From Chrysaora quinquecirrha (lineage: Eukaryota > Cnidaria > Scyphozoa > Semaeostomeae > Pelagiidae): a stretch of 64,000 nucleotides of DNA. The position numbers and the translations under genes are program-made. The stretch's first letter is position 1; each line of letters starts with the position of its first letter. The stretch lies in contig JACTAT010000037.1 in NCBI GenBank assembly GCA_014526335.1, positions 5,260,026-5,324,025 of the forward strand, written 5' to 3'. Below, one piece after another: positions 7,436-62,288 of this stretch. The notes below the pieces were generated by a model, which worked only from the letters and a program-made list of their open reading frames with translations, had not been told where the DNA came from and did not search any database.

Positions 7436-8021
7436 TAGAATTTATGAATTATTATTGCGTTTTATGAAATTGTTTCAAAATTAGAATTTTGCAGTTAATT
7501 TAGTATTAGATAATTTTAATTGAGATTGTTGTTTAATTTTTGCAAAGTTAATAGTATAGGGTTTCTTTAGGTTTAGTTTAACTAGGTATTTAATATTGTA
7601 GTTAAATATGTAATCAAATTTATTAGTTGTGGTTATTAGCCATTAGTTTATTTCATTAGTTATAAGATTAGAATCTTGTAGTTTTTGCGTAATTTGTTGT
7701 GTTTAATTTGCATAGTTAATAGTAAAGGGTTTCTTTAGGCTTAGTTTAATTAGGTACTTACAATTGTAGTTTAATAAATAATTAAATATAATAGTTGTAG
7801 TTAATAGTTTATTTATTAGTTGAATTCTAATTGGATACCAGTTAAAATATAGCATTATTAAATATGGCAAGAATATGAACTATTTGACAATCAAACATAA
7901 TGAACATTTAGAAGAATATTTTACAAAACCATATTAATATAAACTTATTTTTAACTTGTATATATGTTGAGTTCATTGATAAAATTGAACGGCATAGCCA
8001 TGTATCTAGCTCAAAAAAAAA
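7436..8021 (+). mobile_element. LINE family A copy A0, 3' UTR only
   Basis: From about 7436 the sequence matches the AT-rich 3' UTR of LINE A as seen at 33050-33585 and 26510-27037 (TTTATGAATTATTATTGCG near the start). It ends in a short A-run at 8012-8021, directly joined to U1 snRNA sequence. ORF2 is absent, so this is a strongly 5'-truncated or deleted copy. The terminal stem seen in other A copies (TAGGCA/TGCCTA) is mutated here. Confidence 0.75.
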
Positions 8022-8161
8022 TTGATCAACAAGGAGATTCTTCAAGGGCGAGGCCTTTCCATTGCAGTTCGGTTTGGCTGACCCCTGTGATTGCCAGAAA
8101 AGTTGGTAACTTAACCGTACAATTTCTGCTAGTGGGGACCTGTGTTCACGCTAGTCCCCTT
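8022..8161 (+). ncRNA. U1 snRNA, 3' part (5' part displaced by LINE A0)
   Basis: The segment starting TTGATCAACAAGG matches U1 from stem-loop I to the 3' end. It includes CAGGGCGAGG-like (here AAGGGCGAGG), GGCTGACCCCTG, the Sm-site region AATTTCTGG and the terminal stem ending GTCCCC. The first ~30 nt of U1, including the 5' splice-site pairing sequence, are not next to it because the LINE 3' end abuts. It cannot make a functional U1. A spacer of about 300 bp follows before 5S. Confidence 0.85.
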
Positions 8162-8468
8162 CCAATAGTACTAATGTCAAATTCTGCATGCATGTCATCA
8201 CACCACATTTCCCTCATTCGTACAGCCGAAACCGGAAGCCTATCACTTCTCTCACCATGAAAGAGCAAGCTGGGCTTCCACGAATGCCACGCCTGCTGCT
8301 CCAACTGCACAGAGTCCTCTCCTCTCCTCACCACACAACCTCAGCAGCACTGGACACCATAACCAACATCGACACCCATCCACTTCACATCGAGCAAACA
8401 GTATATGCGCATGTGCATGTGTACCTCTCGAGCCTGTAGTGTCATGCACATTTGGCGCCTTGGCTTTT

Positions 8469-8588
8469 GCCTACGACCATACCAGCATGAATATACTGGT
8501 TCTCGTCTGATCAACGCAGTCCAGCATGGTTGGGCAAGGTCAGTACCTTGATGGGTGACCGCCTGGGAACACCTGGTGTTGTAGGCTT
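8469..8588 (+). rRNA. 5S rRNA (copy 1)
   Basis: The 120-nt gene begins GCCTACGACCATACCA and ends GTTGTAGGCTT, with complementary ends forming helix I. Internal Pol III control elements are visible (CAGCATGGTTGGGC region and GATGGGTGACCGCCTGGG). There are several substitutions relative to copies 3 and 4 (for example ATACTGG and GTCTGATCAACGCAGTCC), so this copy may be diverging. Confidence 0.92.
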
Positions 8589-8591
8589 CAC

Positions 8592-8596
8592 TTTTT
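8592..8596 (+). terminator. Pol III T-run after 5S copy 1
   Basis: TTTTT lies a few bases after the 5S 3' end, as expected for RNA polymerase III termination. Confidence 0.75.
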
Positions 8597-8734
8597 GCAA
8601 TTACAGTCCTTCTTTTCAATCGATGTAGCCAGCCAGGTATTGCACACGGACTGGCAATTCTGTGTCGCTGTCCTGCACCCACCTGCGATCGCAGCATGCG
8701 TGGAGACATGGCCTGAAGCAAAGACTAGTTTGCT

Positions 8735-9273: not shown

Positions 9274-9299
9274 ATACTTACCTGACGTGGAAGACATTT
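9274..9299 (+). ncRNA. U1 snRNA 5' end, interrupted by LINE A1
   Basis: ATACTTACCTGACGTGGAAG matches the U1 5' end, including the 5' splice-site pairing sequence ACTTACCT. It breaks off within about 26 nt and runs into LINE A1, six bases before the ORF1 ATG at 9306. Confidence 0.85.
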
Positions 9300-9305
9300 A
9301 TTAGC

Positions 9306-10978
9306 ATGGACCCGTCAGGTAATAGTACCATGGAAGTCAACAACATGGAGACTAATCAAGATTGGGCATCTTTGGTTCAAGAGTCAGCAAAAAAGGATGA
9401 AGAACATGCACAAAACAACACTGAAGTTGCGCATGCGCATCATTCAATACCACAAGCAGGAGAGAAAGGTGTTACATCAGGAATTTCAAACGTACAGGAT
9501 TTACAAGGTAAAAGTTTTGCAGATAAATTAAAGGGTACACCGCGCAGATCAACTGAATCACTAGGCCAACATGGCATCAAGTTCTTCACAAAATCCAGCA
9601 TTCAACATACAGAGATAATCACCACAATACACAAATCACTTAATGACCCAACAGCAATCACACATTTACAACACATGCCCTCAAAACCAGGATTTCAAAA
9701 TTGGAACGCCATCTTGTCACATTCAACATTGGTTGACGTCCTCTTGTCTAAGTCCATATTTCTACCATCACAGCCAGAACACCCCCTATCAATCACCCCC
9801 ATTAGTTCACGCCCAACCCTCATAACCATTCCATTTGCCTCATCAGAAATTTCCAATAATCAAATACACGAACAACTCAGTCCTCATGGTAAAATATTAA
9901 ACTTGTGGCATCAAAAATATCAAGAGTTCCCCACCATTTCAACAGGAAAACGTTTATGGACCATCTATCCAAACCCATAAAATCCACTTCCACCATTTAT
10001 TGTCATGTCAGGCCGCAAAATCTTAATTTAATTCCGAGGATATCAACCGATATGCATGCATTGCAATTCCACTCACCACCTCACCATCAATTGCAATCTG
10101 AGGGTTCTGAAGCTCTGCTTCCACTGTGGGTACGATAGCCACAACTTCCGTGACTGTGACACATGACTAAACTGTGACAGGCACACAACACACAATACAG
10201 AACAAAGACAAACCTCTGACAGTGACATGAACAGTGACAGTGACAATCACAGTGAAAACAACAGTGACACTGACAATTTTGACGGTGACCCAGTTATACT
10301 CTAACTATGACAGTGACTTAGACAGGCCTAAGAACAGACTTAGGGCCTTACCCACAGAACAGGAACAACATCAACATAGTGACAGTGAGACAGACCAACA
10401 GGACGGATTAGCAGGGTCTAAGTTTAGGCTTAGCCCCTTGCCAACAAAACAACAACAACAAAAGAATGACACAAACTCAGACACACAGGACGAGGACGAA
10501 ATACAGTTTGAACCAAACAGTGGTAGTCAGGCTGAGGACCCCAACTCCATCTCCCATACAACAGCTGCTCAAACAACTCCATCATTTGATTAATCCCAAT
10601 CCGACTTAACTATCCAACCTCACCAGTATCTCAAAAAGCCACCCAAAATAACAACTCCGAATCAATTCTTCCACAAGTAGTTCAAGCACTGCAACAACAT
10701 TCACCATCATCAACACCAGCCACTGCAACACCACCTACAATCACTGCATCTATTGCCTCTGCACTTTTCCATTACTCTGCTCCATCAACACAAACATCAA
10801 CTGCAGTTTTTTCACTTACCACTGCAACCTCAACACCTCAACTCACAGCAACGAACTCACACAAAATAGACCAATGGCATTGTCATCATCATCATCTTCT
10901 CAGAAGCCCTCTTTGGATATGCAAGAAAAAACAAAAGTCAAGAAGAAGAAACACAAAATATTACCTCAGGAAATATAA
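9306..10978 (+). pseudogene. LINE A1 ORF1 (CCHC RNA-binding protein), degenerate
   Basis: Starts MDPSGNSTMEV and aligns along its length with the intact ORF1 of A4 (62300-63985). It has a shared central region (GIKFFTKS..., PSKPGFQNWNAILSH), two CCHC knuckles (CMHCNSTHHLTINC and CFHCGYDSHNFRDC), a Ser/Asp/Gln-rich linker and a lysine-rich end. In-frame stops occur at 9978-9980, near 10030 and after the second knuckle. ORF1 proteins of this type bind the element RNA. This copy cannot make a complete one. Confidence 0.8.
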
Positions 10979-11076
10979 AAATTCACACTTTTTTGTTTCT
11001 TTTTTAATTTCATTTATTTTGTATAATTAAATTAATTGCTTATAAAACAAATTGTGCCCCAAAACTCTAAATTACA

Positions 11077-12891
11077 ATGCCCTCAATGCTTAGTATCAAT
11101 GTCAATGGGTTGAATGACCCATCCAAGGCAGAAGCAATCTTTCATAATATTAAGAATGATAAACCAGATATATTATTTCTACACAAAACCCATTGAAACC
11201 ATAACACTAAAACACCATTATATCTTATACAAGATGGAAAGGAATAAAAATCCATTCCCTTTCTCCAAATAATTTTGCAGGTGTTAGCACTCTCAATTCT
11301 GAAAATTTTAATGCAACTATACATTCTAATGACATTTGCCAAGAGGGAAACTATATTTTTACTGAGTTGACCTTTGACGATCACCGCTTTCTTTTGACAA
11401 ATGTATATGCTCCTGCAGGAGGTAATAAAACACAAAAAAGAAAGGATAAATTTTCTGAAATTCAGACTAAAATCCAAAATTATCCAGATGCTGAATTTAT
11501 TATTTATGGTGGTGATTTCAATACAGTTCTTGATACAAATTTAGACAGAAGTAGGGACATAACTTACATTGACAGATCAAAAAATCCCCTTATTGAAACC
11601 GTTAATGAACATGATTTGCAAGATATTTGGAGGACCTTTAACCCTGATGACAAACAATTTACCTACAAAAGTCCAGTCGGAACATACAGCAGACTCGATA
11701 GATTTTATACCTCAAAAGCTACAATGAACTACTTTACAAAATGTGAAATTGTTCCATTTCCTCACTCTGATCATCAAAAACTGTTACTGGTTTTTGATTT
11801 TGATAAAATAAAGAGGGGAAAGGGATCATGGAAAATGAATACGTGCATCTTACAACAAGAAGAATATCAGCTTGCAATGTCCGGATTTCTCCAGTTTTGG
11901 ATTTCCATATTTGACGATTTTCATAATCCACTTGATTGGTGGGATAAGGCTAAACAACAAATAGCAACAATTACTAAACAATATTGTATAAAACTATCAA
12001 TTGAACGCAAAAAGAAAAAGTCAAAACTTTATAAACAATTGCGCAATGCAACGAAAAAGCAGAACAGACAGACAAACAGTCATTCAAAGACTTAGTTGAA
12101 CGTATAACCAAAGAAATAAAAAGTCTTGAAACCAACGAAGCATTTAATTTAAAAGTCAAAGCAAAAGCACGCTGGACAGAAGAGGGTGAAAGGGTCACCA
12201 AATATTTTTGTATTTTAGAGAAAAAACGTCAAGCTGCACAAGTTATGAAGTCTGTTAAGACCAAAACAGGAACAACAGTAAACAATCCAAAAGATATGCT
12301 TGAAACTGTCAAAACATTTTACTTCCACTTGTTTGAAAACGAACCAACAGATACTACTAAACAAGATCAACTGCTCTCAAAAGTAGAAAACAAACTTTCT
12401 GATCTTGACAGAGACAATTGCGAAGGCCAACTAACAAAAGATGAACTATACACAGCCCTTTCTAGGATGAAAAATAATAAAACACCAGGCCTTGATGGTA
12501 TTCCAGTAAAGTTTTGTAAAACCTTCTGGAATATCATTGGTGAGCATTTTACAAGAGTTTCTAATGCCTGCTTTGAATTACAACAACTTTCCCACTCTAA
12601 ACGTATAAGCTTAATTTCAACACTTTACAAGAAAGGTGACAAAAATGATCTCAGGAATTGGAGACAATTAGTTTGCTCAATGTTGACTACAAGATAATTG
12701 CAAAAACTCTTGCCAATCGTATGCGAAAGGTATTATCAACCATTGTTTCTGAAGATCAAACATCCAGTGTCCCAAATAGATCAATTTTGTCAAATGGCCA
12801 TATATTAAGAGATCTTATTGCGGAAAATGAAAATCTCCCAGCAGCCCTTCTATCTTTAGACCAAATGAAAGCCTTTGACCGTGTTAACTCA
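11077..12891 (+). pseudogene. LINE A1 ORF2 (endonuclease/reverse transcriptase), degenerate and truncated
   Basis: Begins MPSMLSINVNGLNDP, the usual start of an apurinic-type endonuclease. The catalytic QETH motif reads HKTH and is followed at once by a stop. The frame is open again at 11367-12095 (GGDFNTVLD; SDHQ) and continues in pieces to 12891 with the first RT motifs (NNKTPGLDGIP, LDQMKAFDRVN). The YADD catalytic box and everything C-terminal are missing. Confidence 0.8.
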
Positions 12892-25700: not shown

Positions 25701-27037
25701 AAAGAAGTTTATCTGATGACTTTTATATTAAAAATACCAAAGATGAATATGTTTTATTTTCATCTCTGACTTGCAAAACAATCTACAATATGCTCATCTT
25801 GAAAGATCAAAATGTTATTGCTCAGAAATTTAGAGTTTTTTGGGAACAAAAAATAGGTTCTGTCAATTGGCCAAGACTCTTCAAAACTTTATTTAAAAGA
25901 AATCATGACAGAAAATCTGCCAACATTCAGTGGAAGTTTCTTCAACTTTGTCTCCCTACCTAAGAAAGATTATATAGACATAGGATTGTCCAAACCCCTG
26001 CATGTCAAAGATGCAATTCGTATGATGAAACTTCACTTGATGCCTTTTTCAATTGTACCCCTGTCAGTAAATTGTGGAAATTTGTATTCAAACTTGTTAA
26101 GAAAATCAACCCTTCCCTCAATCTAAATAACATTTGTAAGTTTGTTATATTTGGCTTTTACGAATATAAACCCGACTTACCTGTAGAAAACTTTTTACGA
26201 GATGCAGCTTTTTCAGTCATTTGGAAAACAAGAAATGAAATAATTTTTGACAACAAAAGAGATGACTTGAGAAACAGATTCATCTTCAAGGTTATTTCCA
26301 AACTCAAAGAAGAACATTTCATTGCTTCACAAGATGTTGAAACTCTCAATCTTTTGAACAAAATGGTGTCAAAATGGCGTCCTTGCATCCCTTGAGAATC
26401 GAAAACTCAAAATCAACATCCCATGAGACTTGCCTTGTTTTCATTTACCCGATTTCTGTTTTTTTCTCTCCATTTTTCCTGCTTCACTTTCCTGTCTTTC
26501 CTTTTCTTTTATGAATTATTATTGCGTTTATTAAATTGTTTATTTATTTGTTTCAACGTTTGAATTTTTAAACTTAGAATTAGAGAATTTCAATTGTAGT
26601 TTAATAAGTATTTAATTAGTTGTAGTTTATTCATTCGGTTTTACCATTAGAATTTTATAATATTGGGTTTGCTTAGATTAGTTTAATTAGGTAATTTAAA
26701 TTGTTGTTAAGTATTTTATTAATTTCATTAATTTTAGTTTTATCATTAGTTAAGTAAGTAATATATTAAGATTAGTTGTAGTTATAGCTGTTGTTGTAGT
26801 ATTAAGTTCATTAGAATAGTTAGTTGTAGTTTAAAGTAATTTAGTTAAGTTTGCATTTGAGATTAAAAATAGACCCTTCAACAATATTTATATACCATGA
26901 ACACTTACCAATGACCAATATATTGCAAGTGAACAATTTCAAAACTTATTTAATTAAATTATTTTAACCTGTAAATATGTTGAGTTTTGAGATAAAATTA
27001 AACGAGCGTAGGCATGTGCCTAGGTCAAAAAAAAAAA
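22766..27037 (+). mobile_element. LINE family A copy A2, 5'-truncated, 3' end in U1
   Basis: Homology to LINE A begins near the endonuclease QETHLN motif (about 22770). It runs through RT and the 3' UTR to an A-run joined to U1 sequence (TTAATCAACAAGG). ORF1 and the first part of ORF2 are missing. From about 25341 onward it is duplicated as A3 (31871-33585). Next to the A-run is the stem TAGGCA/TGCCTA. Confidence 0.85.
22970..26395 (+). pseudogene. LINE A2 ORF2 (endonuclease/reverse transcriptase), nearly continuous
   Basis: Open for 997 codons from 22970, then a single TAA at 25961-25963 where A3 has TAT. The frame then continues to a frameshift near 26350. Endonuclease motifs GGDFNTVLD and HSDHQ are present. 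RT motifs are present (NNKTPGLDGIPVEFY, LDQMKAFDRVNW, GVRQGCPLSPLL, QYADDTTIIL with YADD at about residue 581 of this frame). Compared with A1, about 27 residues are deleted between endonuclease and RT (near 23508). A C-terminal Cys motif reads CQRCNSYDETSLDAFFNC, with Asp in the usual His position. Even without the nonsense codon the 5' truncation makes it inactive. Confidence 0.85.
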
Positions 27038-27139
27038 TTAATCAACAAGGAGATTCTTCCAGGGCGAGGCCTTTCCATTGCAGTTCGGTTTGGCTGACCC
27101 CTGCGATTACTGCAAACGTTGGTAACTCGACCGTACAAT

Positions 27140-27175
<36 letters not shown>

Positions 27176-27177
27176 TT
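27038..27177 (+). ncRNA. U1 snRNA, 3' part (after LINE A2)
   Basis: Begins TTAATCAACAAGGAGATTC and runs to the terminal stem GCGTTCGCGCTAGTCCCC. It contains CCAGGGCGAGG, GGCTGACCCCTGCGATT and the Sm region AATTTCTGG. The 5' third is absent because the LINE lies directly upstream. Confidence 0.88.
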
Positions 27178-33687: not shown

Positions 33688-33723
<36 letters not shown>

Positions 33724-46233: not shown

Positions 46234-46554
46234 ATGTGAACAGACAAAACACACGATAGGTAGTTACCAAAATACCTAGACGACACCTCATTAGTAATAT
46301 CACCCAAAGAAAGCCCGATTGTCAGTCCATCCGTCAACAGCCAATATCCAATATCAAATATGACTTAACTATGACCCAGTGCATAACAGAACGTGCACAC
46401 AAACACGGCAATTCAATGCATGTACTGTATGACGGAACGAATGGAATGGACCATAGAGCATGGAACCTTACTGGACCCTAGAAACCCGATGACTGCCAGC
46501 AAACGTCCTAGGCAATTTAACTGTACTTAAATTCTAATTTAACCAATATTTAAA

Positions 46555-47367
46555 CGTCGTGCCTTACTCATAACAATCCCTGACGCAACTCCGGATATCT
46601 CGGACAACCAAATCTGTTCAGAACTTGAGAAGTTTGGGACAGTCCTAAGGATTTGGAAGCAAACCTGGGAGGGCTTCCCTAACGTCTTCAATGGAAAATG
46701 GCTAGTAACTATGTTTCCATCATTATCGAACAAACTCCCACCATATATTTTAATTCGCAACCAAAAGATTTCCTTGTCCTTCAAGGGCAAACCTGTTTTC
46801 TGCAAAATCTGTATGAAGGATACGCATAGAACAAGTGATTGCCCTTGGAAGGACCTAAAACACTGCTACCTTTGTGGGTCAACAGAACACAAGAAAAACC
46901 AATGCGAAAGGTTTCAAATAATTCGTAAAACCAAGAGGTAGAGCTCCCCCGAAGAGGTCCTTGCCTATTATGATAACATTGAAGAGCAACAAAGCACAGA
47001 GCAACAACCAACTGGCTTTACACAGACCGCCAATGACTCAGACAATGAAAATGAACACAATCAGGACGAAGTCATCGACGAGCATACACCAGAAACAAAC
47101 AATACTACCCAAACCAACGCCGATAAAAAGCCCGAATGTAAAGATTCCCATGACGATAGCCAACCTGAGTGCACCCAAAACAACAGCACAAAACCAAAAC
47201 GCCCAAAACCCGTTTTACCATCAACCACAGATAAACGCCTAGTTAAAGAAAACAAAGATACCCCAGCCCCACAACAAGACCCAGCAATCGCCATCAATGC
47301 TTACCAACCATACAAAAAAGGAACCAAACGAAGTATCCCGTCTACACCAGAAAAAAAAGAACACTAA
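46555..47367 (+). pseudogene. LINE B1 ORF1, C-terminal part
   Basis: Resumes at RRALLITIPDATPDIS and includes both CCHC knuckles (CKICMKDTHRTSDC and CYLCGSTEHKKNQC). A frameshift at about 46935 gives an early stop (IIRKTKR). The downstream Pro/Thr/Lys-rich tail can be followed in another frame to about 47367. Confidence 0.8.
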
Positions 47368-47447
47368 AACAAAGAAAGCCCCAGATAAATCTAATGAACA
47401 CCACAATTAAATCTACATATCTTATCCCCTTTTTCCTACATTTAACT

Positions 47448-50400
47448 ATGGCTTGTATTGCAAGTATAAATGTAAATGGGTTGCGAGACCCCCGTCGTCG
47501 TGACACGATTTTACAGCACTTATTCTCTAAGAACTTTGACATAATCCTTTTGCAAGAAACGCACTTGAATTTCTCAGAACTTGACAAAACCTTCGTAAAT
47601 TGGAAAGGAAAATCCTTTCATTCCGTGTCAACAGACAACAGAAAGGGTGTCTCGATTTTAATCTCTGATAAAATCAACACCACAATCCATTCGCATTATG
47701 CCAGCAATACAGGTCATTATGTAATCTTAGACCTTTCAATCGATGAAAACCGGCTTCTTTTAGTCAATATTTACGCTCCTGCCGGAGGCAAAGACGGCAT
47801 TGTCCGTCGCAAACAATTCCTCCAAAACCTTCAAAAAGATCTTGATAAGTACTCGCGTACTGTTCCTTTTATTGTCGGCGGTGATTTTAACTGCGTTTTG
47901 AATAATGACCTTGATAGATCAAATAATGTCGTCTACGTAGACAGAACAACTCTTAATCTCAAATCTTTCTTAACCCATTTTAATTTAGAGGATATCTGGC
48001 GTACTCAGAACCCTACTAAAAAAGAATTCACCTATCTCAGTCCTCACGGGTCTTTTAGCAGACACGATAGGTTTTATACTTCCCGCGAAATTTCGTGATA
48101 AATTTACTAATTGTTTTATTAAGCCTTTCCCCCACTCGGATCATGATAAAGTTATATTAAAACTAGATTTCTCTAAAATTAAACGCAGTCCGGGCTCCTG
48201 GATGCTAAACACCTCTATCTTAAAAGAACAAGCCTTCGTTGACCTCATCAATGACTACATAGACTCCTGGAAGGGCAGAAAAAGGGATTTTGACTCTCTA
48301 GCTGACTGGTGGGAATATGGAAAGTTGCGAATCCGTGAAATAGCAAAGGTTTTCTCAGCAAAACGCAGAAAAGAAGCCTTAAAAAGGAAATCCCAATTAT
48401 ATAAAAAACTACGTAATTCTAAACGCAAAGCGGAAAGAAGCGGAGACCCTAGGTTTGTTACCCTGACCAAAACTTTATTTAACGAAATTAAACGCATAGA
48501 GACCAAAGAGGCCGAGGCTCCTAAATTCGTGCTAAGGCAGAACAAGGTGAAAAGGTCACCTCCTATTTTTGTTCACTGGAAAAGAAACGGCAGGGTGATA
48601 GAACCATGAGAGCGATTAGGGATAAACAGGGCAATGTTGTAACTGCACCAAATCAAATACTGGATTCTGTGAAAACCTTTTACGAAGACTTGTACACTGA
48701 AGAGCCTGTAGATGAAACCGCGCAAAACGAACTCTTAACAAATCTCTCTAGGACCCTTTCTACAAACCAGAAACTCCTCTGCGAGGGCATTATTACTATG
48801 AAGGAACTCTCTCTAGCCTTAAGCCAAATGCTAAATAACAAATCACCCGGTACTGATGGCTTACCCTATGAATTTTACAAAGTCTTTTGGAAAAAGCTAT
48901 CAGACTGCCTGTTAGAAGTCATCAATGAATGCTTTGCGAACAAGAATCTAACCCCCTCGCAGAAAGTTGCTCTAGTTTCTTGTTTATTTAAGAAAGGTGA
49001 ACGAGAAAGGATTGAAAACTGGAGACCAATTAGTCTACTGAATTGTGATTATAAACTCATTGCTAAGGTTATTTCTAATCGCCTTTCATCGGTTCTATCG
49101 TCAATTGTCTCTGAGGACCAAACCTGTTCTGTTCCAGGACGCACAATTTTATCAAATTGCCATGTTTTACGCGATCTAGTGCAAATTTGTGAGGATCAAA
49201 ACCTACCCGTGGGCTTACTCGCAATTGATCAAATGAAGGCTTTTGACCGGGTAAACTGGGGTTTCCTTTTCAAAACTCTTGAAAAACTGAACTTCAGTCC
49301 AGTTTTTATAAGCTGGGTCAAACTCTTATACACAGACATCAAAAGCTCTGTTAAAGTAAATGGTTACATTTCGGATACTTTTTCTCGCACTCGAGGGGTC
49401 AGACAGGGTTGCCCTCTTTCGGCCCTTCTCTATGTCGTCATTGCCTAGGTTTTCGCAGAAAACATCAGAAAAGATCCAAAAATTAAAGGTATTACTGTCA
49501 ACAAAACAGAATTCAAAATCGTACAGTATGCTGATGACACAACTTTAATCCTACAAGGAAATCCTTCAATCTTAGCCTGTCAGCAACATCTTTCAAATTT
49601 CGAAAAAGCCACAGGTGCTAAAATAAACACTGACAAAAGTGAAGGCGTCTGGCTGGGTAGTTTTAAAAGTAGATCAGACTCTCCTTTCGGCTTTGACTGG
49701 TCTAACAAATCTCTGAAAATCCTGGGAATCTTTTTCGGTATTGGAAATATCTCAAAATTAAATTGGGATTCTAAGATTTTAAAGTTCCAGAAAACCCTCA
49801 ATCTTTGGAAAAACCGTGATCTAACTTTTCGCGGGAAAGCTATTGTTGCAAATCAACTCGCTAGCTCTGCCCTCCTTTACACGGCCACTTTTTTTCCTAT
49901 ACCACCATGGACTCTTAAGAAACTGAATGAATTTCTCTGGGCCTTTCTCTTCAACGGCAAGAAGCCGCCAATCAAACGTATTCAACCTAAGCATTCCATA
50001 CGCTGATGGCGGCCTCAATTTTGTCGACATAGAAAAGAAAGCCCAAAGCCTACAATTGTCTTGGCTCGCCAAGCTCTTTGATTCCAAACTGTAGACTTCA
50101 AACTTCCCCTCAATAACTTGGATAAACCTCTTTCGAAACTAGCCTCGAAAGACTTTTTTATCAACATCTGATTGCTTCTACTCTTGATTTGGCTTCTCAA
50201 AAATTTAGATTATTTTGGGACAGTAAATTCGGTTATTTAGACTGGAAAATTATTTTCAAGTCGATTTTCTCTCGCGATAACGATCGTAAATCTTGTGACT
50301 TACAATGGAAGTTGATCCAGCTTGCCCTACCGACCGCTGATAAACTCTCCAGACACAACATTATTGATAACCCAAATTGTTTACGTTGCCAAAGAGACAG

Positions 50401-50812
50401 GGAGACCTCTGTTCATCTCTTTGTTCGCTGTTCCCTGGTTAACGACCTTTGGCAACAAGTAATTCAACTGATTAAAGATCTCGATCTAAACCTAAACATC
50501 GACTTTGATAACTTAGAATTCTTTGTTGTTATTGGTTTTGCTTTAAATAAAACTACGCAAGCCATAATTCCAGCTATAACTATTCGCGATATTGCACTCC
50601 GCTCTATCTGGTCAACAAGAAATTAAATTGTTTTCGATAACGAAGTAAATAACCCCACAGATACTTTTAAATCCAAACTAAAACGTAAAATCAAAAATCA
50701 ATTTAACCTCTCTAAAGATTTAAATGCCACCCTTTCCTTATTTACAACCAACTGGTGTCGAAACAATGTTTTGGCTTCAGTTGTAAATAACAACTTACAC
50801 TTGAACATCTAA
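47448..50812 (+). pseudogene. LINE B1 ORF2 (endonuclease/reverse transcriptase), decayed
   Basis: ATG at 47448 (MACIASINVNGLRDP). Endonuclease motifs QETHLN and GGDFNC are intact. A one-base insertion near 48090 ends the first frame at 48098. Further shifts occur near 48530, and a TAG at 49446-49448 replaces Glu after the GVRQGCPLSALL motif; YADD is in the next segment. About 0.6 kb is deleted near 50093 relative to B2. The C-terminal part (CLRCQRDRETSVHLFVRC, a Cys-Cys-His-Cys motif) is present. The natural stop is at 50810-50812. Inactive. Confidence 0.85.
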
Positions 50813-51521
50813 AGCCTCTATTACTTTGAACAACAACAACAATGTTAAAATCACTGCATTTCGCACGGGAAAACACTACCGCTCACCAAAGGAATCCGTT
50901 GGTTCCATTTTGCTTTCGATCCCCTCGCCTGTGAGAATCAGAAGATTTCTCACTAGGAAATGTCTTATGAGGAAAACTCCGTACTTTAGTACCCTGTGAT
51001 ACATACTTGATGCTCCTTCTGGACATCTTGTTGAAATGTATCGTTGTATATATTTGCTAACTAACATACCTCTATTTTATAACTGTATTCCTTTGCATCA
51101 ATAACTAATGTCTTTATTGCCATTTCGTAATGTTTAGTACTTAGATTTGTAGTATTTCGAGCTTGAATATACATGAAGTATCACATCGCTAGCAAGTTTG
51201 ACTAATTTTAGCCCCAGCATTTTGGGAGCAAAAACATCAGCCTTTTACTCAATTTCACTCAATGAACCATGTCCATTCAAGTTCAGCCTAACTTTATGCA
51301 ATTATAGACTTTATGTATCATAATTAAAAATCAAACAAGTAAGTATCCACTTCCAATGAACACTTACAGTAATCAGCAATTCAAATATATATTCATTTTA
51401 AAATAATTTCTATTTTTGTAATTACTTAATTAGTTAATTTTTTGTTTAAATTTTTGTATATATTTTTGATTTAGTAAATTAAACGGTTGCTGGCATTCGC
51501 AAGACTCAAACGAAAAAAAAA

Positions 51522-51536
51522 TTGATCAACAAGGAG
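51522..51536 (+). ncRNA. 15-nt U1 remnant between two LINE B copies
   Basis: TTGATCAACAAGGAG is exactly the U1 sequence that follows the other LINE ends. Here it is sandwiched between the tail of B1 and the 5' end of B2. Confidence 0.85.
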
Positions 51537-51696
51537 TGTTTTTCTACACTCTTCCCCTTTTCGCTTTTTCGACATTAAGATCGCTTAAAAGTGCTCAAAT
51601 TTAGTTTCAAATTATTGATATAATCATTACAAAGTCTTTTAGAGACTTTTGCTTGATTAAACCGCTGTTATTCCACTGGAAATTTCAAAATATCTC

Positions 51697-52890
51697 ATGG
51701 CCTCAAACGCGGAAACAACAATTTGGGGTGATGTCATGGAAAACCACACTGTCGAAGCTGAACCCAAAAGACCATCTTTTGCAGATAAACTCAAAACGTC
51801 CAATGGTAGAATGCTACCTGGAGATCTGGCAGCAAGAGGGGCTAAATTTGAAACTCAAGACGGTATTGATTTCAAAGAAATAATCACGTTTTTTCAAGGT
51901 AAATTTAAAGACGCCGGTGCAATTCAACAGCTTATGCCTCTGTCATCCCTCCCGAGTCGACAAAAATGGAATATTATTTTTTCGAAGCCCAACATGGTTG
52001 ATGATGTTATTGATAATATTGTTAAATTTCCTTCAATGACAAAAGAACAAGTTGGTATTGTTTTCACACCAGTTCGACGCCGTGCCCTTTTAATAACCAT
52101 CCCTGATGCCACCCCCGACATCTCAGATAATGAAATCCGAGGTGAACTGGAAAAATTCGGGACCGTTCTCAGGATTTGGAAACAAACCTGGGAAGGGTTC
52201 CCAAATGTTTTTAATGGAAAAAGGCTTGTCACGATGTTTCCATCCTTATCAAAAGAAATGCCTCCGTATCTCCTCATCAAAAATAAAAAGATATCCCTGT
52301 CTTTCAAGGGAAAACCCGTCTTCTGCAAAATATGCATGAAAGACACTCATCGTACAAATGATTGTCCGTCAAAAGATATGCAGCACTGTTATATATGTGG
52401 CTCTACTGAGCATAAAAAAAATAAGTGTGAGAGATTCCAGATCATACGGCGCCCAAGGGGTAGAGGAGAAAAGATCTTCGACTCTGATGATGAAATAGAC
52501 GAAAACATTCCACAACCACCAGGATTTCAACCAACAAATTACCCACAACATGACGAACAAGATGACACATCTGCCGAGGATTTTCCCGAGACAAATGAGG
52601 ACATTCCAGAGTCTCAAAATGAAACCCCTGTTGACCCCCCACCCTCCACAAAACCTAAGAACACAAAAGCAAAGAAACCAACTCCACCACCGAAATCTAG
52701 CGCTGCAATCCAGAAAGCAAACAACAATCAACCTGCACCCAATACGGAAATCCAAACCAAAGATCCTGCTACTAAATCTGCCTCTGACTACCCACCCTTC
52801 AAAAAAGGAGCAAAAAGACCCACCACTGCAACTCCAGAAAAGAAACCACGAAAGAAACCTGCGGGTAAGGACACTCAGACTCCAACATAA
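51697..52890 (+). CDS. LINE B2 ORF1, CCHC RNA-binding protein, intact
   Basis: 397 residues, ATG at 51697 in context ATCTCATGG, stop at 52888-52890. The N-terminal third has a conserved block (SFADKLKTSNGRMLPGDLAA) shared with B1. The middle has an RRM-like region (LLITIPDATPDISDNEIRGE ... VLRIWKQTWEGFPN). Then come two zinc knuckles of C-x2-C-x4-H-x4-C type: C210/C213/H218/C223 and C231/C234/H239/C244. The C-terminal 140 residues are Pro/Asn/Lys-rich and probably disordered, ending basic. The expected role is to coat the element RNA in a ribonucleoprotein. LINE A ORF1 has the same order with little sequence identity outside the middle and the knuckles. Confidence 0.9.
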   Translation: MASNAETTIWGDVMENHTVEAEPKRPSFADKLKTSNGRMLPGDLAARGAKFETQDGIDFKEIITFFQGKFKDAGAIQQLMPLSSLPSRQKWNIIFSKPNMVDDVIDNIVKFPSMTKEQVGIVFTPVRRRALLITIPDATPDISDNEIRGELEKFGTVLRIWKQTWEGFPNVFNGKRLVTMFPSLSKEMPPYLLIKNKKISLSFKGKPVFCKICMKDTHRTNDCPSKDMQHCYICGSTEHKKNKCERFQIIRRPRGRGEKIFDSDDEIDENIPQPPGFQPTNYPQHDEQDDTSAEDFPETNEDIPESQNETPVDPPPSTKPKNTKAKKPTPPPKSSAAIQKANNNQPAPNTEIQTKDPATKSASDYPPFKKGAKRPTTATPEKKPRKKPAGKDTQTPT

Positions 52891-52938
52891 ATCATCTTTT
52901 TATATTATTTCCCCTATTTTCTTATATTTACAACTACT

Positions 52939-55900
52939 ATGGCTTGTATTTCTAGCATAAATGTGAATGGGTTGAGAGACCCCCGTCGTCGTGACACGAT
53001 TTTTCACCATTTATTTGCTAAAAATTTTGACATAATTATGTTGCAAGAAACGCATTTAAACTCCACTGAACTTGACAAAACCTTCGCAAATTGGAAAGGA
53101 AAAACCTTTCATTCCGTGTCAACAGACAACAGAAAAGGTGTCTCGATTTTAATCTCTGATAAAATCAACACTACAATCCATTCACATTATGCCTGCAATA
53201 CAGGTCATTATGTAATTATAGACCTCTCTGTTGACGAAAATCGATTTATTCTTGCTAATATTTATGCCCCGACTGGAGGACAAGACGCCATTGTTCGTCG
53301 TAAAGATTTTCTTAGAAACCTTCAAAATGATTTGAACAAGTACCCACGTACTTTTCCTTTCATCGTTGGTGGTGATTTTAATTGCATTTTAAATAATAAT
53401 CTTGACAGATCGAATAACGTTACCTATGTAGATAGAAGTACCCCGAATCTTAAACACCTATCAAACGTCTTTAACTTAGAGGATATCTGGCGTACCCAGA
53501 ATCCTACTAAAAAAGAATTTACTTATTGCAGCCCCCTAGGATCTTTTAGCAGACTTGATAAATTCTATACTTCTCGCGAATTTCGCGATAAATTTTCTAC
53601 ATGCTTTATCGAACCCTTTCCCCACTCTGATCATGATAAAATCATTCTAAAAGTCGACTTCTCTTGCATAAAACGCGGACCTGGATCTTGGATGTTAAAT
53701 ACCTCTACCTTGAAAGAACAATCCTTTCTCAACCTCATCAATGGTTTCATAGACACTTGGAAGGGCAAGAAGGGGGACTTTAACTCATTGTCTGACTGGT
53801 GGGAGTATGGAAAATCTCGTATCCAATCAATTGCTAAAGAATACTCAGCTAAGCGTAAGAAAGAACACATGAAAAGAAAGACCCAATTATACAAAAAACT
53901 GCGCAAACAAAGCCAAAACAACGAGGACCCCAGGTTTGTTGCCCTCACAAAAACTATATCGGATGAGATAAAACATATAGAAACGAAAGAAGTTGAAGCC
54001 GTGAAATTTCGCGCTAAAGCAAAATGGACGGAACAAGCAGAACGAGTCACCAACTACTTCTGTTCGCTCGAAAAGAAACGGCAAGGTGATAGGACTATGA
54101 AAGCAATTAGAAATAGCCAAGGTACTATAGTTTCTAAACCCCACGAAATCTTAGATTCTGTTAAGACCTTCTATGAAGAGCTCTACACAGCGGAACCTAC
54201 TGATGATACCTGCCAACAGGAACTTTTAGGTAAAGTATCTCGAACCCTCCCAAACGACAAGAAACAAGCCTCTGAGGGCAAAATTACCCTTAAGGAAATG
54301 TCGTTAGCGCTAAGCCAAATGGTGAACAATAAATCACCAGGCACAGATGGCCTACCGTATGGGTTTTACAAAATTTTCTGGAATAAAATCTCCGAAGATT
54401 TCTTAGCTGTTGTTAATGAATGCTTTGAAAATAGAAATCTCACCCCTTCGCAGCAAATAGCCTTGATTTCTTGCCTGTTCAAAAAAGGCGAGAGAGAGAA
54501 AATTGAAAATTGGCGCCCTATTAGCCTGTTAAACTGTGACTAGAGGAACATTGCCAAAGTTATTTCCAATCGCCTCTCACATGTTCTACCTTGCATAGTG
54601 GCTGAAGATCAGACCTGTTCCGTTCCGGGAAGAACTATTCTCTCTAACTGTCATGTTTTACGCGATTTAATCCAAATAAGTGAGGATGACAACCTCCCTG
54701 TGGGCTTACTTGCAATTGATCAAATGAAGGCATTCGATAGAGTTAACTGGAATTTTCTCTTCAACACCCTTGAAAAGTTGAACTTCGGTCCGGTTTTTAT
54801 TAGCTGGGTTAAATTGCTTTACACAGATATAAAAAGCTCTGTTAAAGTTAATGGCTACATTTCAGACACCTTTAACCCTACCCGAGGAGTCAGACAGGGT
54901 TGTCCTCTTTCTGCCCTTCTCTATGTGATCATTGCTGAGGTTTTCACAGAAAACATCAGACAAGATCGAAAGATCAAAGGTATTACTGTTAACAAAACCG
55001 AATTTAAAATTGTACAATATGCCGATGACACGACTTTAATCCTTCAAGGAAATCCCTCAATCCTTGCTTGTCAACAACACCTCACTGACTTTAAAAAAGC
55101 CACAGGTGCAAAAATAAATACAGACAAAAGTGAAGGCCTCTGGCTGGGAAGCTTTAAAAATAGAAATGACTCTCCGTTTGGTTTTGACTGGTCGAAAAAG
55201 TTGTTGAAAATCCTTGGAATCTTCTTTGGACTACACAATGTTTCTAAGCTAAATTGGGACTCTAAAATCTCGAAATTTCAAAAGACACTAAATCTTTGGA
55301 AAAATCGCGACCTCACATTTCGCGGTAAAGCTATTGTAGCTAATCAACTTGCTTGTTCTGTTTTACTTTACACTGCCACTATCTTTCCCATCCCTCAATG
55401 GGCTATGAAAACCTTAAATGAGAGTCTGTGGGCCTTTCTTTTCAACGGCAAAAAGCCGCCAATCAAACGTATTCAAGCAAAGCTTCCATACACTGATGGC
55501 GGCCTCAATTTTGTTGATATTGAAAAGAAAGCCCAAAGCCTCCATTTGTCCTGGCTAGCCAAACTGTTTGACAAAGAACAAACAGGAAAATGGAAAGTCC
55601 TATTCACTCACTTTCTTGGGAAATATAATGACCTCAATATTGGGCCTAATGTTTTAAAATGCTTTCTTAGTTCAAGGCAAATCAATAAACTGCCTTGTTT
55701 TTATAAATCGCTTTTGAACTCTTATCTGAATCTCTGCAACAACAAAAGATCTAATCCAAATCCTGCTATTGAAATCTTCAATGAACCACTGTTTGATAAT
55801 TCTCTTAAGGCCCGGTTACACTATTAGATATTCCATTAAATATTCCATATATAGAGCATCTAAAACGAGAAATAATATCTAATGGAATATCTAACAGTGT

Positions 55901-57426
55901 AACAAGTCCCTTAGATATTCCATTCATTTTGGCGCTGCCTGAATTCAGTAAATCGTAGTCTGAGCAGAGAAAAGATGTTTTTCGTTGAATTTGATATATT
56001 TAAGCATGTTTCTCTCCACTATCGAAAATTGAACCAGAAACAAGTGGAAAAACATCTTGCAAGTCTACTTTTCGAAGTTTGGCTTTCTCAGAGCTTCCAA
56101 CACACTGTTCCATACAGTTTTTCTATTGATTTGGTAAAACATTGATAATATTCGCGATGGAAATTGGTAAACTGCAGTTTTTGCATAGAAAATACAAGAA
56201 ATGGCCTGAAAAGTCCACTGTTGCTTCAAAACTTGCACGTCATTACGTCATCAGACAGTCGGCATCTTTACGTCTGCATTCTTTTACATTAGATATTCGG
56301 AATAAAATCAAAACGATTTGATTTTATTCCCAGCTTGATTAGATATGTTTTTCCTCCTTTTTAATCCCTCATCGAATATCTAATGGCACGTTACACTGTT
56401 ATATATCTAATCGACACACTATTTTTGGTATGTCTGGTGAATATCTTATGGAATATCTAATAGTGTAACCGGGCCTTTATAGCTAACGAAAAGCTCCCTT
56501 TCGTACAGTCATGGGTCGATGCAGGGGTTACTCTTGTTCGAGACGTGACTTACGAACTCTCCCCCGGATTTCTCCCAAGTCTTGCCCTTCAAGAACTTGT
56601 AGGAGAATGCTTTAGGAAAAAGAATCATGATATTATGCTTTCCCTTATACCTCCCGAGTATCGAGAAATTGTTAGGAAAAACGCTGCACCCCCCGAACAC
56701 TTCTCTGTAGACTTTAAGCTTCCCCTCACTGGATTGAACAAACCTATTTCGAAACTAACATCGAAAGACTTTTATCACTATCTTGTTGCTTCTACTCTCG
56801 ATTTACCTTCTCAGAAATTCAGACTGTTTTGGAATAACAAATTCGGCAATTTAGATTGGAAATTTATTCTCAAGTCAATTTTCTCTCGCGATAATGATCG
56901 AAAATCTTGTGACTTACAATGGAAGTTAATCCAGCTTGCCCTCCCGACAGCTGATAAACTTTCAAGACACAACATCATTGATAATCCGAATTGTTTACGT
57001 TGTCAAAGGAACATAGAGACTTCTGTGCATCTCTTTGTTCGCTGCCCTTTAGTCCATGACCTTTGGCAAACAGTAATCCAATTGACTAAAGACCTGGATC
57101 TAAATGTAAACATTGATCTTAACAACCTAGAATACTTTGTTGTTATTGGTTTTGCCTTAAATAAAACTACGCAAGCTTTAATTCCTGCTCTAACTGTCCG
57201 CAATATCGCACTGCGCTCTGTTTGGTCAACCCGAAATAAAATTGTCTTTGATAATGAAGTTAAAAACCCCCTAGATAATTTTAAATCTAAACTTAGACGC
57301 AAAATTAAAGAACAATTTCATCTCTCTAAAGATTCAAATGCTAACCTTTCGTTATTTAAAACCAACTGGTGCCGAAACAATGTTTTAGCCTCAGTTGTAA
57401 ATAATAACTTACACGTAAACATCTAA
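52939..57426 (+). pseudogene. LINE B2 ORF2 (endonuclease/RT), one nonsense codon and a MITE insertion
   Basis: Start MACISSINVNGLRDP at 52939; natural stop 57424-57426. Without the MITE and its target duplication (672 bp) the frame has 1272 codons. Endonuclease: QETHLN, GGDFNCILN, HSDHDK. RT: NNKSPGTDGLPYGFY, IDQMKAFDRVNW, GVRQGCPLSALL and QYADDTTLIL (YADD from about residue 694). The C-terminal Cys motif CLRCQRNIETSVHLFVRC has C-x2-C-x8-H-x4-C spacing. Defects: TAG at 54541-54543 (codon 535, where B1 has Tyr), with GGAAC following, and the MITE at 55808-56476. The endonuclease would nick U1 DNA and the RT would prime there. This copy cannot make the full protein. Confidence 0.9.
55808..56476. 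mobile_element. PIF/Harbinger-type non-autonomous DNA transposon in LINE B2 ORF2
   Basis: 669 bp with inverted ends AGGCCCGGTTACACTATTAG and CTAATAGTGTAACCGGGCCT, flanked by TTA on both sides (55805-55807 and 56477-56479). The 3-bp TTA duplication and the ends fit PIF/Harbinger-like elements. Internal copies of ATTAGATATTCC occur in both orientations. Removing it restores the ORF2 frame (FDNSL then IANEKLPF). Confidence 0.88.
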
Positions 57427-58151
57427 AACATGCTTACTATTGCTTAAAACAACAACAACAATGTTAAAATCACTACATTTTGCGCGGGAAAACACTACTG
57501 CTGACCAACAAAACCTCTTGGTTCCAGTTAAAAAAAAACAATACAAACAGCCCCTTACGATCCTGTTATAACCCCATGTACCGCACACTGATGAAAATCT
57601 TTCCAAACCCCCGTAATTGATTCATGATGCCCCTAATAGGCATAATTTGAAATGTACTTAGTACCCTGTAATACATACTTGGTGATCCTAATGGACATCT
57701 TGTTCAAATGTATTGTTGTATATATTTGCATATTATAATATCGCTATGTTATTTTATCAATAATTAATAATTTTATCGTTACGTCCTAATATTTAGTATT
57801 ACTATTAGTATTTAACTTCTTTACATTCCGAGCTTGAATACACATAAAGCAGCAGACCCCTACTAAGTCTAGCACAGCTTGACTCCAGAAAACAAGGGAA
57901 GCAACAACAATGACAATGTCCACTCAGGTTTCCAAATAATCCATGTGTTTTCAAACTCGTTGTGGATTAATTCAAGTTAATGTAATGTGACTGGCACAAG
58001 TCATGCCAATAAAGTCTAATGAACACTGAAATCAACATATCGAGAATTTGAAACAGTATTCACTTTAGAATAATTTTTATCTTTGTAATTATTTTAGTTT
58101 ATTTTTTAGTTTAAATTTTTGTAAATATTTTTGATTTGGTAAATCAAACGC

Positions 58152-58180
58152 GTGCTGGCATTCGCCAGACTCAAACGAAA
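58152..58180 (+). promoter_or_regulatory. LINE B2 3'-terminal stem-loop
   Basis: CTGGC-ATTC-GCCAG immediately before ACTCAAACG and the A-run. It is at the same position as TAGGCA-TG-TGCCTA in LINE A. Such 3' stems can be recognised by the element's own reverse transcriptase. Confidence 0.6.
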
Positions 58181-58188
58181 AAAAAAAA

Positions 58189-58290
58189 TTGATCAACAAG
58201 GAGATTCTTCCAGGGCGAGGCCTTTCCATTGCAGTTCGGTTTGGCTGACCCCTGCGATTACCTCAAACGTTGGTAACTTGACCGTACAAT

Positions 58291-58326
<36 letters not shown>

Positions 58327-58328
58327 TT
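58189..58328 (+). ncRNA. U1 snRNA, 3' part (after LINE B2)
   Basis: TTGATCAACAAGGAGATTC to GTCCCCTT with the usual landmarks. It is separated from 5S copy 4 by 433 bp of array spacer. Confidence 0.88.
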
Positions 58329-58881: not shown

Positions 58882-58884
58882 TAC

Positions 58885-59059: not shown

Positions 59060-59237
59060 CGGGGAAGCTCTATCCGTCGACATCAAATTTAGGCAGGTTA
59101 GTTCCTGCAATACCACTGCAGGTAGATCTAATCTATTGTGGTTATTTTTTTGAAATTTCTGGTTTTTTTATTATTATGGCTCAACTAAGAAGACCAACAA
59201 CTGTATGGCTCAACTAAGAAGACCAACAACTGTTTGA

Positions 59238-61619
59238 GAAGCCAAGTAACTATTTCTTTACTCTCGAGTCTTCTAGACAGGAGAGAAAGGTTATTAATGC
59301 AATGAAATCCTCTGATGATATAATTGTTAAAGATACAACTGGAATTCTGAATGTTTTAGCATCTTTTTACAGTGACCTTTTTTCTTCAAAGCCTTTGGAT
59401 CTGTCAGAGCAGGAGAAATTGCTCGATTCTATTGATAAACAACTCTCTGAGTGTGAACATCTTTCTTTAGAAACTCCTTTATCCAAAGACGAGTTCTTTG
59501 AAGCTTTATCATCAATGAAGCGTCTCAAATCTCCAGGTTGTGATGGTCTGCCAATGGAGTTTTATCTTCAATTTTGGAAAATTTTAGGTGATGATTTCAC
59601 AGATTTGATGAATTTTTTCCTTCAAGAAGGAAGATTTTCTGATTCTATGCGTACTGCAGTAGTAAGTCTAATTTTTAAATCCGGTGATAAACTCCTTTGT
59701 AAAAACTGGCGTCCCATTTCTTTACTTAATGTCAACTACAAGATTGTAACAAAAGCTATGACAAATCGTCTTAAGAATGTTCTCTCCAGAGAACATTCTT
59801 AAGATCTATTGTCTTGTCAGATCAGACTTGTAGTGTTCCGGGAAGAAGTATATTTGATTCTTTGTTTCTTGTACTTGATGTTTTTGAGTATGTAAACCAG
59901 GAAGATCTTTCCTGTGCAGTTTTAAAGTTAGACCAAGAGAAAGCTTTTGATCGAGTGGATCATGAGTTTTTATTCAAGGTTATGCGAAAAATGAACTTTG
60001 GTCCAATATTCGTTAGCTATGTCCAGGCTCTTTATAATGATGTGTCTTCGAAGGTTCTTAATAATGGACATTTTTCTAAATCTTTTTCTGTAACAAGAGG
60101 TGTAAGAAAGGGTTGTCCACTGTCTCCCCTTCTGTTCGTTCTTGTAGCTGAGACCCTTGGTAACTCTCTTCGTAAAAAGGGGCTTCAAATTCCTGAATCT
60201 GTTGTCAAAGTTTGTCAATATGCGGATGACACAACAGTTTTTGCAACGGATTGTCAGTCAATACATGAAATTAAAAGAATCACTCAAAGTTATGAGCTAG
60301 GCTCTGGAGCAAAGCTAAAATTGAATCCTGGTAAGTCTGCTGGATTGTGGGTAGGTGACTATAATGGTCCTTCTAACTTGTTTGGATTTGATTTCTCTTC
60401 AAAATCATTGAAGATTCTTGGTATTGAATTCGGTCGTGAATGTTCAGTTCTTGAATCTTGGAACTCTCGTGTTAACTCCCTAGAAAATAAATTGGAATGT
60501 TGGAAAAACCGCTGTCTTTCTTTACGTGGAAAAGTGCTCATAATTAATTCGCTTGCACTTTCAGGTTTAATTTTTCTTGGTTCTGTCTTTCCTATCCCAA
60601 AAAGTGTTGTAACCCACATCAGGAAGTCAATTTTCAATTTTCTTTGGTCAGGAAAGAATGAATTAGTGAAACGTGACTTTATATACCAGCCTTTCGATAG
60701 AGGTGGATTAGGTTTGATAGATATTGCATTGAAAGTCGATTCTTTGCAATTTAAAATGATAAATTACATAGTTGATTGCAATTGTTCTCTTAGTTGGGTA
60801 AATCTAGCACGGTACTGGGTTGGAAGGAGTCTTTCAAAATACTCTGTTCAATGGGTATTTCTAAGATCTAACTCTAAGCTTAATTCTTTATTTCGTCCCC
60901 ATGTCTATGATATGCTTATTGGTAAATTTGACAAGTTCTCTGATATTTATTTAAACATTAAAGCTGTTGATCATACTGTGAGAATGTTTTACAAGCATCT
61001 TTTGGAAATAAATTTTGAAGTCCCTCGTTGTCAACGAGAATGGTTTCATCTAGGTAATATTTCTTGGAAGCCTGTATGGTTAGCATGTTCGAAAGGTATT
61101 TCTAGTGGTCATGAAAATGATGTTAATTGGAAAATTGTTCATCGTGTTATTCCCTCTTTAGTTTATTTAAATTCTTGGGGTATTCCTAACGTTAATATTT
61201 ATTGTAGGAAGTGCAGTAATGTCCCTGAAACTATTTAACATATCTTTCTTCAATGTCCCGTAGCTGTAGACGTTTGGACGTATTACCTCTCTTTCATAAG
61301 TAAGTTGGCTTTAAGCAAGGACGTTATAAATGAGAAATTTTTATTATTGCATATTTATCCGAAAAATATTTGCAACAAAAGGAAAATTATTTGTAACTAT
61401 CTGGTTAAGCTTATTCTTTTTGTTATTTGGAAAAAGCGTTGTTGTAGAGTTTACGAGGCAAAAAATTATTGCAAAGATGATATCATAAGAATAGTTAACC
61501 AGAACATTGTTGAAAGAATATTTGTATATTTTTCTGTCAACAATCCACAGCTGTCCTTGTTTACAATTGATGATGTCTTTTGTAGTAAAGTAGATGATGA
61601 GATTGTTTTGCACATTTGA
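59238..61619 (+). pseudogene. LINE C ORF2 remnant (reverse transcriptase and C-terminal part)
   Basis: Reads SNYFFTLESSRQERKVINAM, then RT motifs (LKSPGCDGLPMEFY, LDQEKAFDRVDH, GVRKGCPLSPLL with Lys for the usual Gln, QYADDTTVF). A 17-base inverted insertion at about 59788 causes a frameshift; the frame resumes at 59814. A TAA at 61236-61238 interrupts the Cys motif (CRKCSNVPETI, stop, HIFLQC). The frame then runs to the natural end at 61617-61619. It is not functional. Confidence 0.85.
59770..59803. repeat. Perfect 34-bp palindrome in LINE C
   Basis: CTTAAGAATGTTCTCT, CC, AGAGAACATTCTTAAG: 16-bp arms with a 2-bp centre. The right arm is an inverted copy of the left coding sequence. It looks like a templated fold-back insertion of about 17 bp that broke the RT frame. 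Confidence 0.85.
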
Positions 61620-61762
61620 TTTTACTAATAATCGAGATAACCATGATTGTATTACACTTGCTGTAAGATGCTTTCTTTCTTAAAAGTTTGATTGTATTAA
61701 GGGAGTGTACCTACAGCTTAACTGGGGGCACTCCCGTTCGAATTCATATTAAAAAAAAAAAA

Positions 61763-61914
61763 GTATCTGTTCTTATCAGCTTAATATCTGATATGCGCCC
61801 AAGGGTGCTCAAATATTAAACTGATTTTTGGAATTGGTCCGTGGGTCTGAAGCTTGCTTCACCCCGGACACGGGTTGTCCTGGTATTGCAGTGCCGCCAT
61901 GGATGGCCCACCCC
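61763..61914 (+). ncRNA. U2 snRNA, 3' part (after LINE C)
   Basis: Starts GTATCTGTTCTTATCAGC and runs to GGCCCACCCC. The Sm region and 3' stem-loops are normal. With 59036-59059 it accounts for one U2 gene except about 12 bases lost at the insertion point. Confidence 0.88.
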
Positions 61915-62103
61915 CTCATCTTGAAGTGTAAAACAAGCAACACAGAAAAACCTTCTTCATCGTCACATCTCTTTCTGTCGTCATCGTCTTGCAGATGTCT
62001 AAGCCATCCTTCTCTCACATTGCACCGCATCAACAATTATTATACAGGAAACAGCATTTGTTTTGCCTTATTAATTCGACCTTTCACCATCGCATTGCAT
62101 TAG

Positions 62104-62267
62104 TGCTGAAAGTTCCAACCGCAACGAGTCTTACCAAATCTGTTCTCATCCTTTGCCGATCTCAATGGAATGGAAGTGCCAGCCTTTCACTTGTGGTCTG
62201 TTGCCAATGTACCACATTTGAAACGAGAAGTTCCTGAACGACGCTCCCTCTGCTAGAAAAATCCTGC
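62104..62267 (+). promoter_or_regulatory. Conserved U1 upstream region (putative promoter)
   Basis: Third copy of the block seen at 9110 and 34828, again directly upstream of a U1 5' end. Here it lies only about 30 bp before the LINE A4 ORF1 start codon, so it may drive the element. Confidence 0.5.
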
Positions 62268-62288
62268 ATACTTACCTGACGGGGAAGA
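62268..62288 (+). ncRNA. U1 snRNA 5' end, interrupted by LINE A4
   Basis: ATACTTACCTGACGGGGAAG, about 21 nt of U1, then AGTGTGTAAAC and the ORF1 ATG. About 4-6 U1 bases before TTGATCA are missing, compared with the B insertion at 35011-35021. Confidence 0.85.

Follow-up and report, generated by a model that had tools for sequence, protein, structure and literature searches.

Several long interspersed elements (LINEs) use fixed targets, and those known for such elements are U2, 5S, 28S and tRNA genes and repeats. The literature describes Keno as a LINE with an apurinic/apyrimidinic (APE)-type endonuclease that is specific for the U2 small nuclear RNA (snRNA) gene (PMC4640811), Mutsu as a LINE specific for the 5S rRNA gene (PMC3706591) and Utopia as U2-specific, with occasional tandem insertions reported (PMC4640811). 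For U1, an RNA central to splicing, the 2015 paper names only Dada-U1 (PMC4640811), a DNA transposon with a DDE transposase and 6-7-bp duplications (PMC3706591, PMC8869645). In R2, target letters upstream of the site pair with the element RNA (P1), and 5' junctions are uniform if the RNA keeps such letters; a proposed tie between the two has support from an injection experiment described in the same paper (PMC3774820). Here we consider a stretch of 64,000 nucleotides (nt) from the scyphozoan Chrysaora quinquecirrha, called the window hereafter as a whole, which lies at 5.26 Mb of contig C290 in a genome of 328 Mb. It contains two LINE families, A and B, and we think it highly probable that both insert between nt 25 and 26 of the U1 snRNA gene by a nick of their own endonuclease and nick-primed reverse transcription, the RNA likely coming from the U1 promoter.

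A and B resemble Keno in being LINEs with an APE-type endonuclease at one site of a multicopy snRNA gene, but the target of Keno is U2 and the A and B ends examined join U1; the nearer match to Keno is a third LINE of the window (59060-61762), which lies in U2 at nt 35/36. Mutsu is likewise specific for a small multicopy RNA gene, but its target is 5S, and the four 5S genes of the window match the 5S model end to end. Utopia shares with the present locus an snRNA gene target and tandem insertions but has a restriction-like endonuclease, whereas that of A and B is APE-type. Dada-U1 resembles A and B in occupying one site of U1 genes and differs in its transposase and its duplications, A and B having a reverse transcriptase (RT); A has lost 4 nt, and the B duplications are mostly 13-15 nt long, with 7 nt at 35015. 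R2 carries a restriction-like endonuclease and targets 28S, whereas A and B target U1. The earlier note on this DNA held that a U1-specific LINE family may be new, and none specific for U1 was found in the open-access literature searched, which did not cover Repbase. On this basis U1 is a new LINE target, reached by two families with a known way of life, and what is unusual is the use that is made of target letters at the 5' end.

The window carries four copies of a U1-5S-U2 unit, with U2 broken in some, and all four of its U1 genes are interrupted by LINE DNA between nt 25 and 26. Intact U1 genes are found on C290, outside the window, and on contig C656, with a period of ~1.41 kb; one of them (locus L001) begins ATACTTACCTGACGGGGAAGACATCTTGATCAACAAGGAGATTC and gives the empty insertion site as GGAAGACATC/TTGATCAACAAGGAGATTC. 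At the five 3' ends listed in the earlier note (8022, 27038, 33586, 51522 and 58189), U1 does resume at TTGATCAACAAGG (nt 26), five matches where shuffled sequences lead one to expect 0.02. Five further stretches of C290 (200 kb in total, the blocks) were fetched around intact U1 genes and are in this way biased towards U1; in the window and the blocks together, 20 of 21 split 3' junctions start at U1 nt 26.

Using the 3' untranslated regions (UTRs) of A and B as genome-wide queries, which contain no U1 letters, we examined the flanks of copies elsewhere, the check that the earlier note had proposed. For A, the best 40 of 167 candidates were scored, all of them on C290 or C380, and all 24 flanks read among these (20 fetched and four others: window 27038, window 33586, E4 and E17) join U1 at nt 26; one (L075) has a single letter changed or lost at the join, and another (L071) has 15 nt of U1 followed by the 5' end of a B element. 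For B, the best 40 of 62 candidates lie on C290, C380 and C656, and 37 of the 38 copies with context read are joined to U1 at the site. This context was obtained by cross-matching the U1-free matches with a search that included 42 nt of U1: 36 of the 40 scored copies extend into U1 (30 to its end, six for 13-15 nt) and the window copy ending at 51522 (15 nt) is the 37th. All 40 A and 40 B matches scored are on contigs with U1. With the A ORF2 protein as query, scoring of 37 out of 3379 candidates gave 49 matches, each of them on C290, C380 or C83. The earlier claim that two LINE families share one exact U1 site thus holds genome-wide among the copies examined, which do not lie in unrelated DNA.

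At the 5' side, U1 nt 1-21 precede the three element starts named in the earlier note, at 9274-9294 (1 mismatch), 34990-35010 and 62268-62288. The starts placed there at 62289 (A) and 35022 (B) stand, the U1 sequence from 34990 extending to nt 32 before B begins at ~35022 (some letters being ambiguous), but the A start placed at 9300 is here read as 9295; this copy has the most changed leader and is read as the same junction. A second B copy begins at 51537, a 5' end missing from that note, the piece of U1 that precedes it from 51522 being 15 nt only. In the window and blocks we count 24 split 5' junctions, comprising 14 A ends, four B ends and six 5'-truncated ends. All 14 A ends follow directly after U1 nt 21 and continue with 11 nt and then the ORF1 ATG, so that U1 nt 22-25 are lost. 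A query across this junction gave the same picture, the best 40 of 236 candidates being uniform in all 40 cases: the matches begin just upstream of U1 and cover 32 nt or more of A, with small gaps in a few. Of these matches, 39 are on C290, C380 or C83 and the remaining one is on C324. The four B 5' ends follow a duplicated U1 piece of 13-15 nt, or of 7 nt at 35015. The duplications of 13-15 nt re-create the U1 target, and in seven of the 40 scored B matches a B lies behind an older B, each after a short U1 piece (13-15 nt): B had re-entered the regenerated target.

A and B are APE-type LINEs of L1-like domain order (endonuclease, RT, zf-RVT). In a fetched A copy, an Exo_endo_phos endonuclease, RVT_1 and zf-RVT are found in one open ORF2 of 1270 aa, and the ORF1 of 565 aa is also open; in B, the endonuclease (PF03372), RVT_1 and zf-RVT were found in pieces. 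The nearest solved proteins are human L1 ORF2p chains, and no Pfam family matches ORF1 above cut-off. The marks of target priming are present in the form of A-tails, 5' truncations and a target duplication (B) or short deletion (A).

These features suggest how the elements may insert. The endonuclease would nick immediately 5' of nt 26, on the strand that is complementary to U1. The RT would select its RNA by a 3' hairpin and copy it from the A-tail. As the 11-nt leader of A leaves no promoter room ahead of ORF1, the A template is likely a co-transcript of U1 (nt 1-21) and A. The cDNA of U1 nt 1-21 could then anneal to the target, which would give the identical A 5' junction each time and make the loss of nt 22-25 inherited. 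The B duplications of 13-15 nt keep the target whole, so that more copies can enter the same gene.

A number of observations weigh against this reading. One of the 21 3' junctions (c3440k 11013) sits 6-8 nt upstream, and the element's own A-tail is absent at three of the 21. One B copy (C290:2996060, L061) adjoins A ORF1 instead of U1, its 3' end with A-tail directly abutting internal A ORF1 with no U1 between. The genome searches scored the best candidates only, and context was read for 24 of the 40 scored A copies and 38 of the 40 scored B copies. Transcription of A from the U1 promoter is likely, as deduced from sequence; a promoter inside A ORF1 is possible, and B has ~160 nt ahead of its ORF1. 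Duplication of the array may account for some of the copies that are nearly identical. Microhomology of the A-tail, considered separately as the cause of the site, is not supported, as three of the 21 same-site junctions have no tail.

A and B share a hairpin just upstream of the A-tail (4 bp, bulged G, 5 bp, tetraloop). Folding of 38 tails gave the exact hairpin in 28, a partial one or one with a shifted bulge in nine and none in one, the copy ending at 8021. Over 16 distinct rows, including the 8021 copy, 91.7% of cells pair versus 82.9% in shuffled rows (0/500 as high), and the cells changed on both sides number 15 versus 5.1 in shuffles (0/500). In three pairs both partners differ between A and B, a count reached by 386/500 shuffles. 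Since it comes from one contrast between two families, this covariation gives modest support to the hairpin.

At the other end of A, U1 nt 5-16 have their complement in ORF1 codons 3-6, and a 12-bp helix is therefore predicted for a U1-A transcript. Each of the 14 A copies, when joined to U1 nt 1-21, folds in this way, 13 of them around one small hairpin (predicted). Among eight distinct leaders, the 12 pairs are kept in all, in two through G-U, and the small hairpin has 4/4 pairs in seven, with one U-A to C-G change. For two A copies, the 12-nt match is reached by none of 2000 shuffles; a third one, which has G-U pairs, shows a perfect run of only 6 nt, reached by 448/2000. The B leader has an 8-nt match to U1 nt 14-21, reached by 9 and 19 of 2000 shuffles. 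The complementary letters of A are codons and include CAGGTAAT, which we take to resemble a 5' splice site; protein or splicing constraint may therefore contribute to their conservation. By comparison with the R2 ribozyme, no match to an HDV-like or other known ribozyme was obtained with Rfam (E up to 5) at one A (62150-62700) and one B (34940-35400) 5' junction, models that R2-type ribozymes may escape.

One reading of these pairings, tentative but quite possible, is that the U1 gene is a working part of the element rather than just its landing site, the first 21 nt supplying one strand of a 5' RNA structure in a chimeric U1-LINE transcript. In A, U1 nt 5-16 would pair with ORF1 codons 3-6 around the small hairpin; in B, U1 nt 14-21 would pair with the leader and rebuild stem-loop I, with the loop preserved by the duplication. 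The 5' arm of the host RNA might in this way be masked, or reused for processing, protection or translation. The same complementarities could also mean that the element RNA is guided to its site by pairing with nascent U1 RNA, through the 12 nt of A and the 8 nt of B. The shuffle results for two A copies and for B, together with the pairing kept in all eight leaders, favour such guiding, but the third A copy does not stand out from its shuffles and a hairpin inside the U1-A transcript explains the complementarity equally well. As the same site is occupied by copies truncated at the 5' end and by three that lack the canonical tail, protein may suffice, and we consider guiding by RNA improbable.

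Insertion by the elements' own endonuclease has also to be weighed against multiplication with the array, in which a few chance insertions into U1 would have been copied along with the tandem U1-5S-U2 units and the specificity would be only apparent. The regular recurrence of intact U1 genes is in favour of this, as are three elements (E2, E3 and E15) that are 96-98% alike mutually and a duplicated block of the window (27900-31866 and 35454-39423) that is 99.4% alike. By contrast, two families whose RTs are ~58% alike occupy the exact same nucleotide, and five pairs of A copies, aligned over long stretches, are 86-92% alike. The six 5'-truncated ends (two A, four B) are cut at six different points, which argues for separate insertion events. 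B stands behind B seven times and behind A once (L071), and the A ORF2 matches found are confined to array contigs. Array duplication as the sole cause is rejected on account of the varied truncations, the divergence and this confinement, and we hold multiplication of chance insertions to be very unlikely. That the chromatin of the U1 arrays guides insertion, or that selection removes copies elsewhere, with the sequence unrecognised, is scarcely credible: the presence of the third LINE, from a different RT lineage, in U2 of the same arrays would fit, but the junction is precise to the nucleotide, and in the blocks it is always U1, never U2, 5S or spacer, that follows the 13 A or B 3' UTR ends found.

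In an RT tree with 44 rows, A and B belong to a single 16-row group (support 100/99), within which P0121 and P0002 cluster with B (99/97), and P0006 and P0004 with A (100/100); the third LINE lies apart from this group. A distant homologue named Transposon TX1 (P0179, Stylophora) is found elsewhere in the tree, which holds no named Tx1, Keno or Mutsu references. The domain order of A and B fits the Tx1 group, to which they may belong. A single origin of the specificity is possible: either the whole 16-row group would be specific for U1 or A and B would have reached U1 separately, the nearest relatives of B (P0121, P0002) and of A (P0006, P0004) being proteins without genome context. P0004 and P0006, whose contigs measure 1.6 and 2.3 kb, are pieces of RT that are 88-96% like family A, and P0004 is labelled as a Desulfobacterales metagenome-assembled genome, likely host DNA in a bacterial bin.

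The same U1 nucleotide is thus hit by two families, a few hundred bases from U2 genes that contain a third LINE. With LINEs in U1 and in U2 so close, a tandem unit of ~1.4 kb shows target choice among related elements. The 11-nt leader and the complementarity of U1 and A offer a testable case of LINE expression without promoter room of its own, and of 5' joining, and the endonuclease of A and B is a candidate new cutter of a sequence within U1. The third LINE carries RVT_1 and is followed by U2 from nt 35/36 on (61763); its target region is like that of Keno, and its 3' UTR has 16 genome matches, all on C290 or C380. The features of the two families in the window are collected in Table 1.

Table 1. 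Positions in the window of family A and B segments and of the U1 pieces that adjoin them
Feature	Position	Strand	Remark
Family A 3' end fragment (3' UTR, A-tail)	7436..8021	+	7435-7634 similar to 33045-33284; 7934-8206 similar to 33494-33770
U1 gene from nt 26 on (target, 3' side)	8022..8160	+	
U1 nt 1-21 (target, 5' side)	9274..9294	+	1 mismatch
Family A 5' part: 11-nt leader, broken ORF1, ORF2 start	9295..12889	+	
Family A: most of ORF2 (22814-25963 open) and 3' UTR	22779..27037	+	
U1 gene from nt 26 on	27038..27176	+	1 mismatch at junction
Family A 3' part: ORF2 end and 3' UTR	31871..33585	+	
Family A 3'-terminal hairpin (4 bp, bulged G, 5 bp, tetraloop)	33548..33570	+	
U1 gene from nt 26 on	33586..33724	+	1 mismatch at junction
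U1 nt 1-32 (25 nt plus 7-nt duplicated TTGATCA)	34990..35021	+	
Family B 5' end and ORF1 start	35022..35572	+	
Family B copy 1, 5' end broken	46543..51521	+	
U1 15 nt (nt 26-40) between two B copies: regenerated target	51522..51536	+	
Family B copy 2, both ends present, reading frames broken	51537..58188	+	
B ORF1 (397 aa)	51697..52890	+	
B ORF2 in pieces (endonuclease 52939-54543, RT 54544-55827, zf-RVT 56464-57426)	52939..57426	+	
Family B 3'-terminal hairpin	58150..58172	+	one pair broken in this copy
U1 gene from nt 26 on	58189..58327	+	
U1 nt 1-21	62268..62288	+	
Family A 5' part; ORF1 62300-63985 (561 aa) open	62289..64000	+	
A segment complementary to U1 nt 5-16	62305..62316	+	12/12 paired, 2 of them G-U in this copy

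Other observations concern the surroundings of these elements. E2, E3 and E15 are ORF1-only A-like elements of 2.5-2.6 kb (L031-L034 and L039; C290 2.72-2.74 Mb and 3.44 Mb) with A-type ends in U1; they are 73-80% like A, lack ORF2 and look like a trans-mobilised, HAL1-like derivative. A scan of viral contigs for the U1 5' end gave no match. In the window, U1, 5S rRNA and U2 are linked as one unit at 8022-8923, 27038-27890, 33586-34626 and 58189-61916. The duplicated block mentioned above is 4 kb long and starts within a B ORF1 fragment, and its left side abuts a broken U2. Repeat arrays at 29514-31231 and 37069-38785 have units of 28, 66, 78 and 159 bp around CTGCCACATGCAGTTTGAACC. Finally, 18118-21746 contains open frames that resemble, by eye, a LINE of a different type (FADDTLLY motif).

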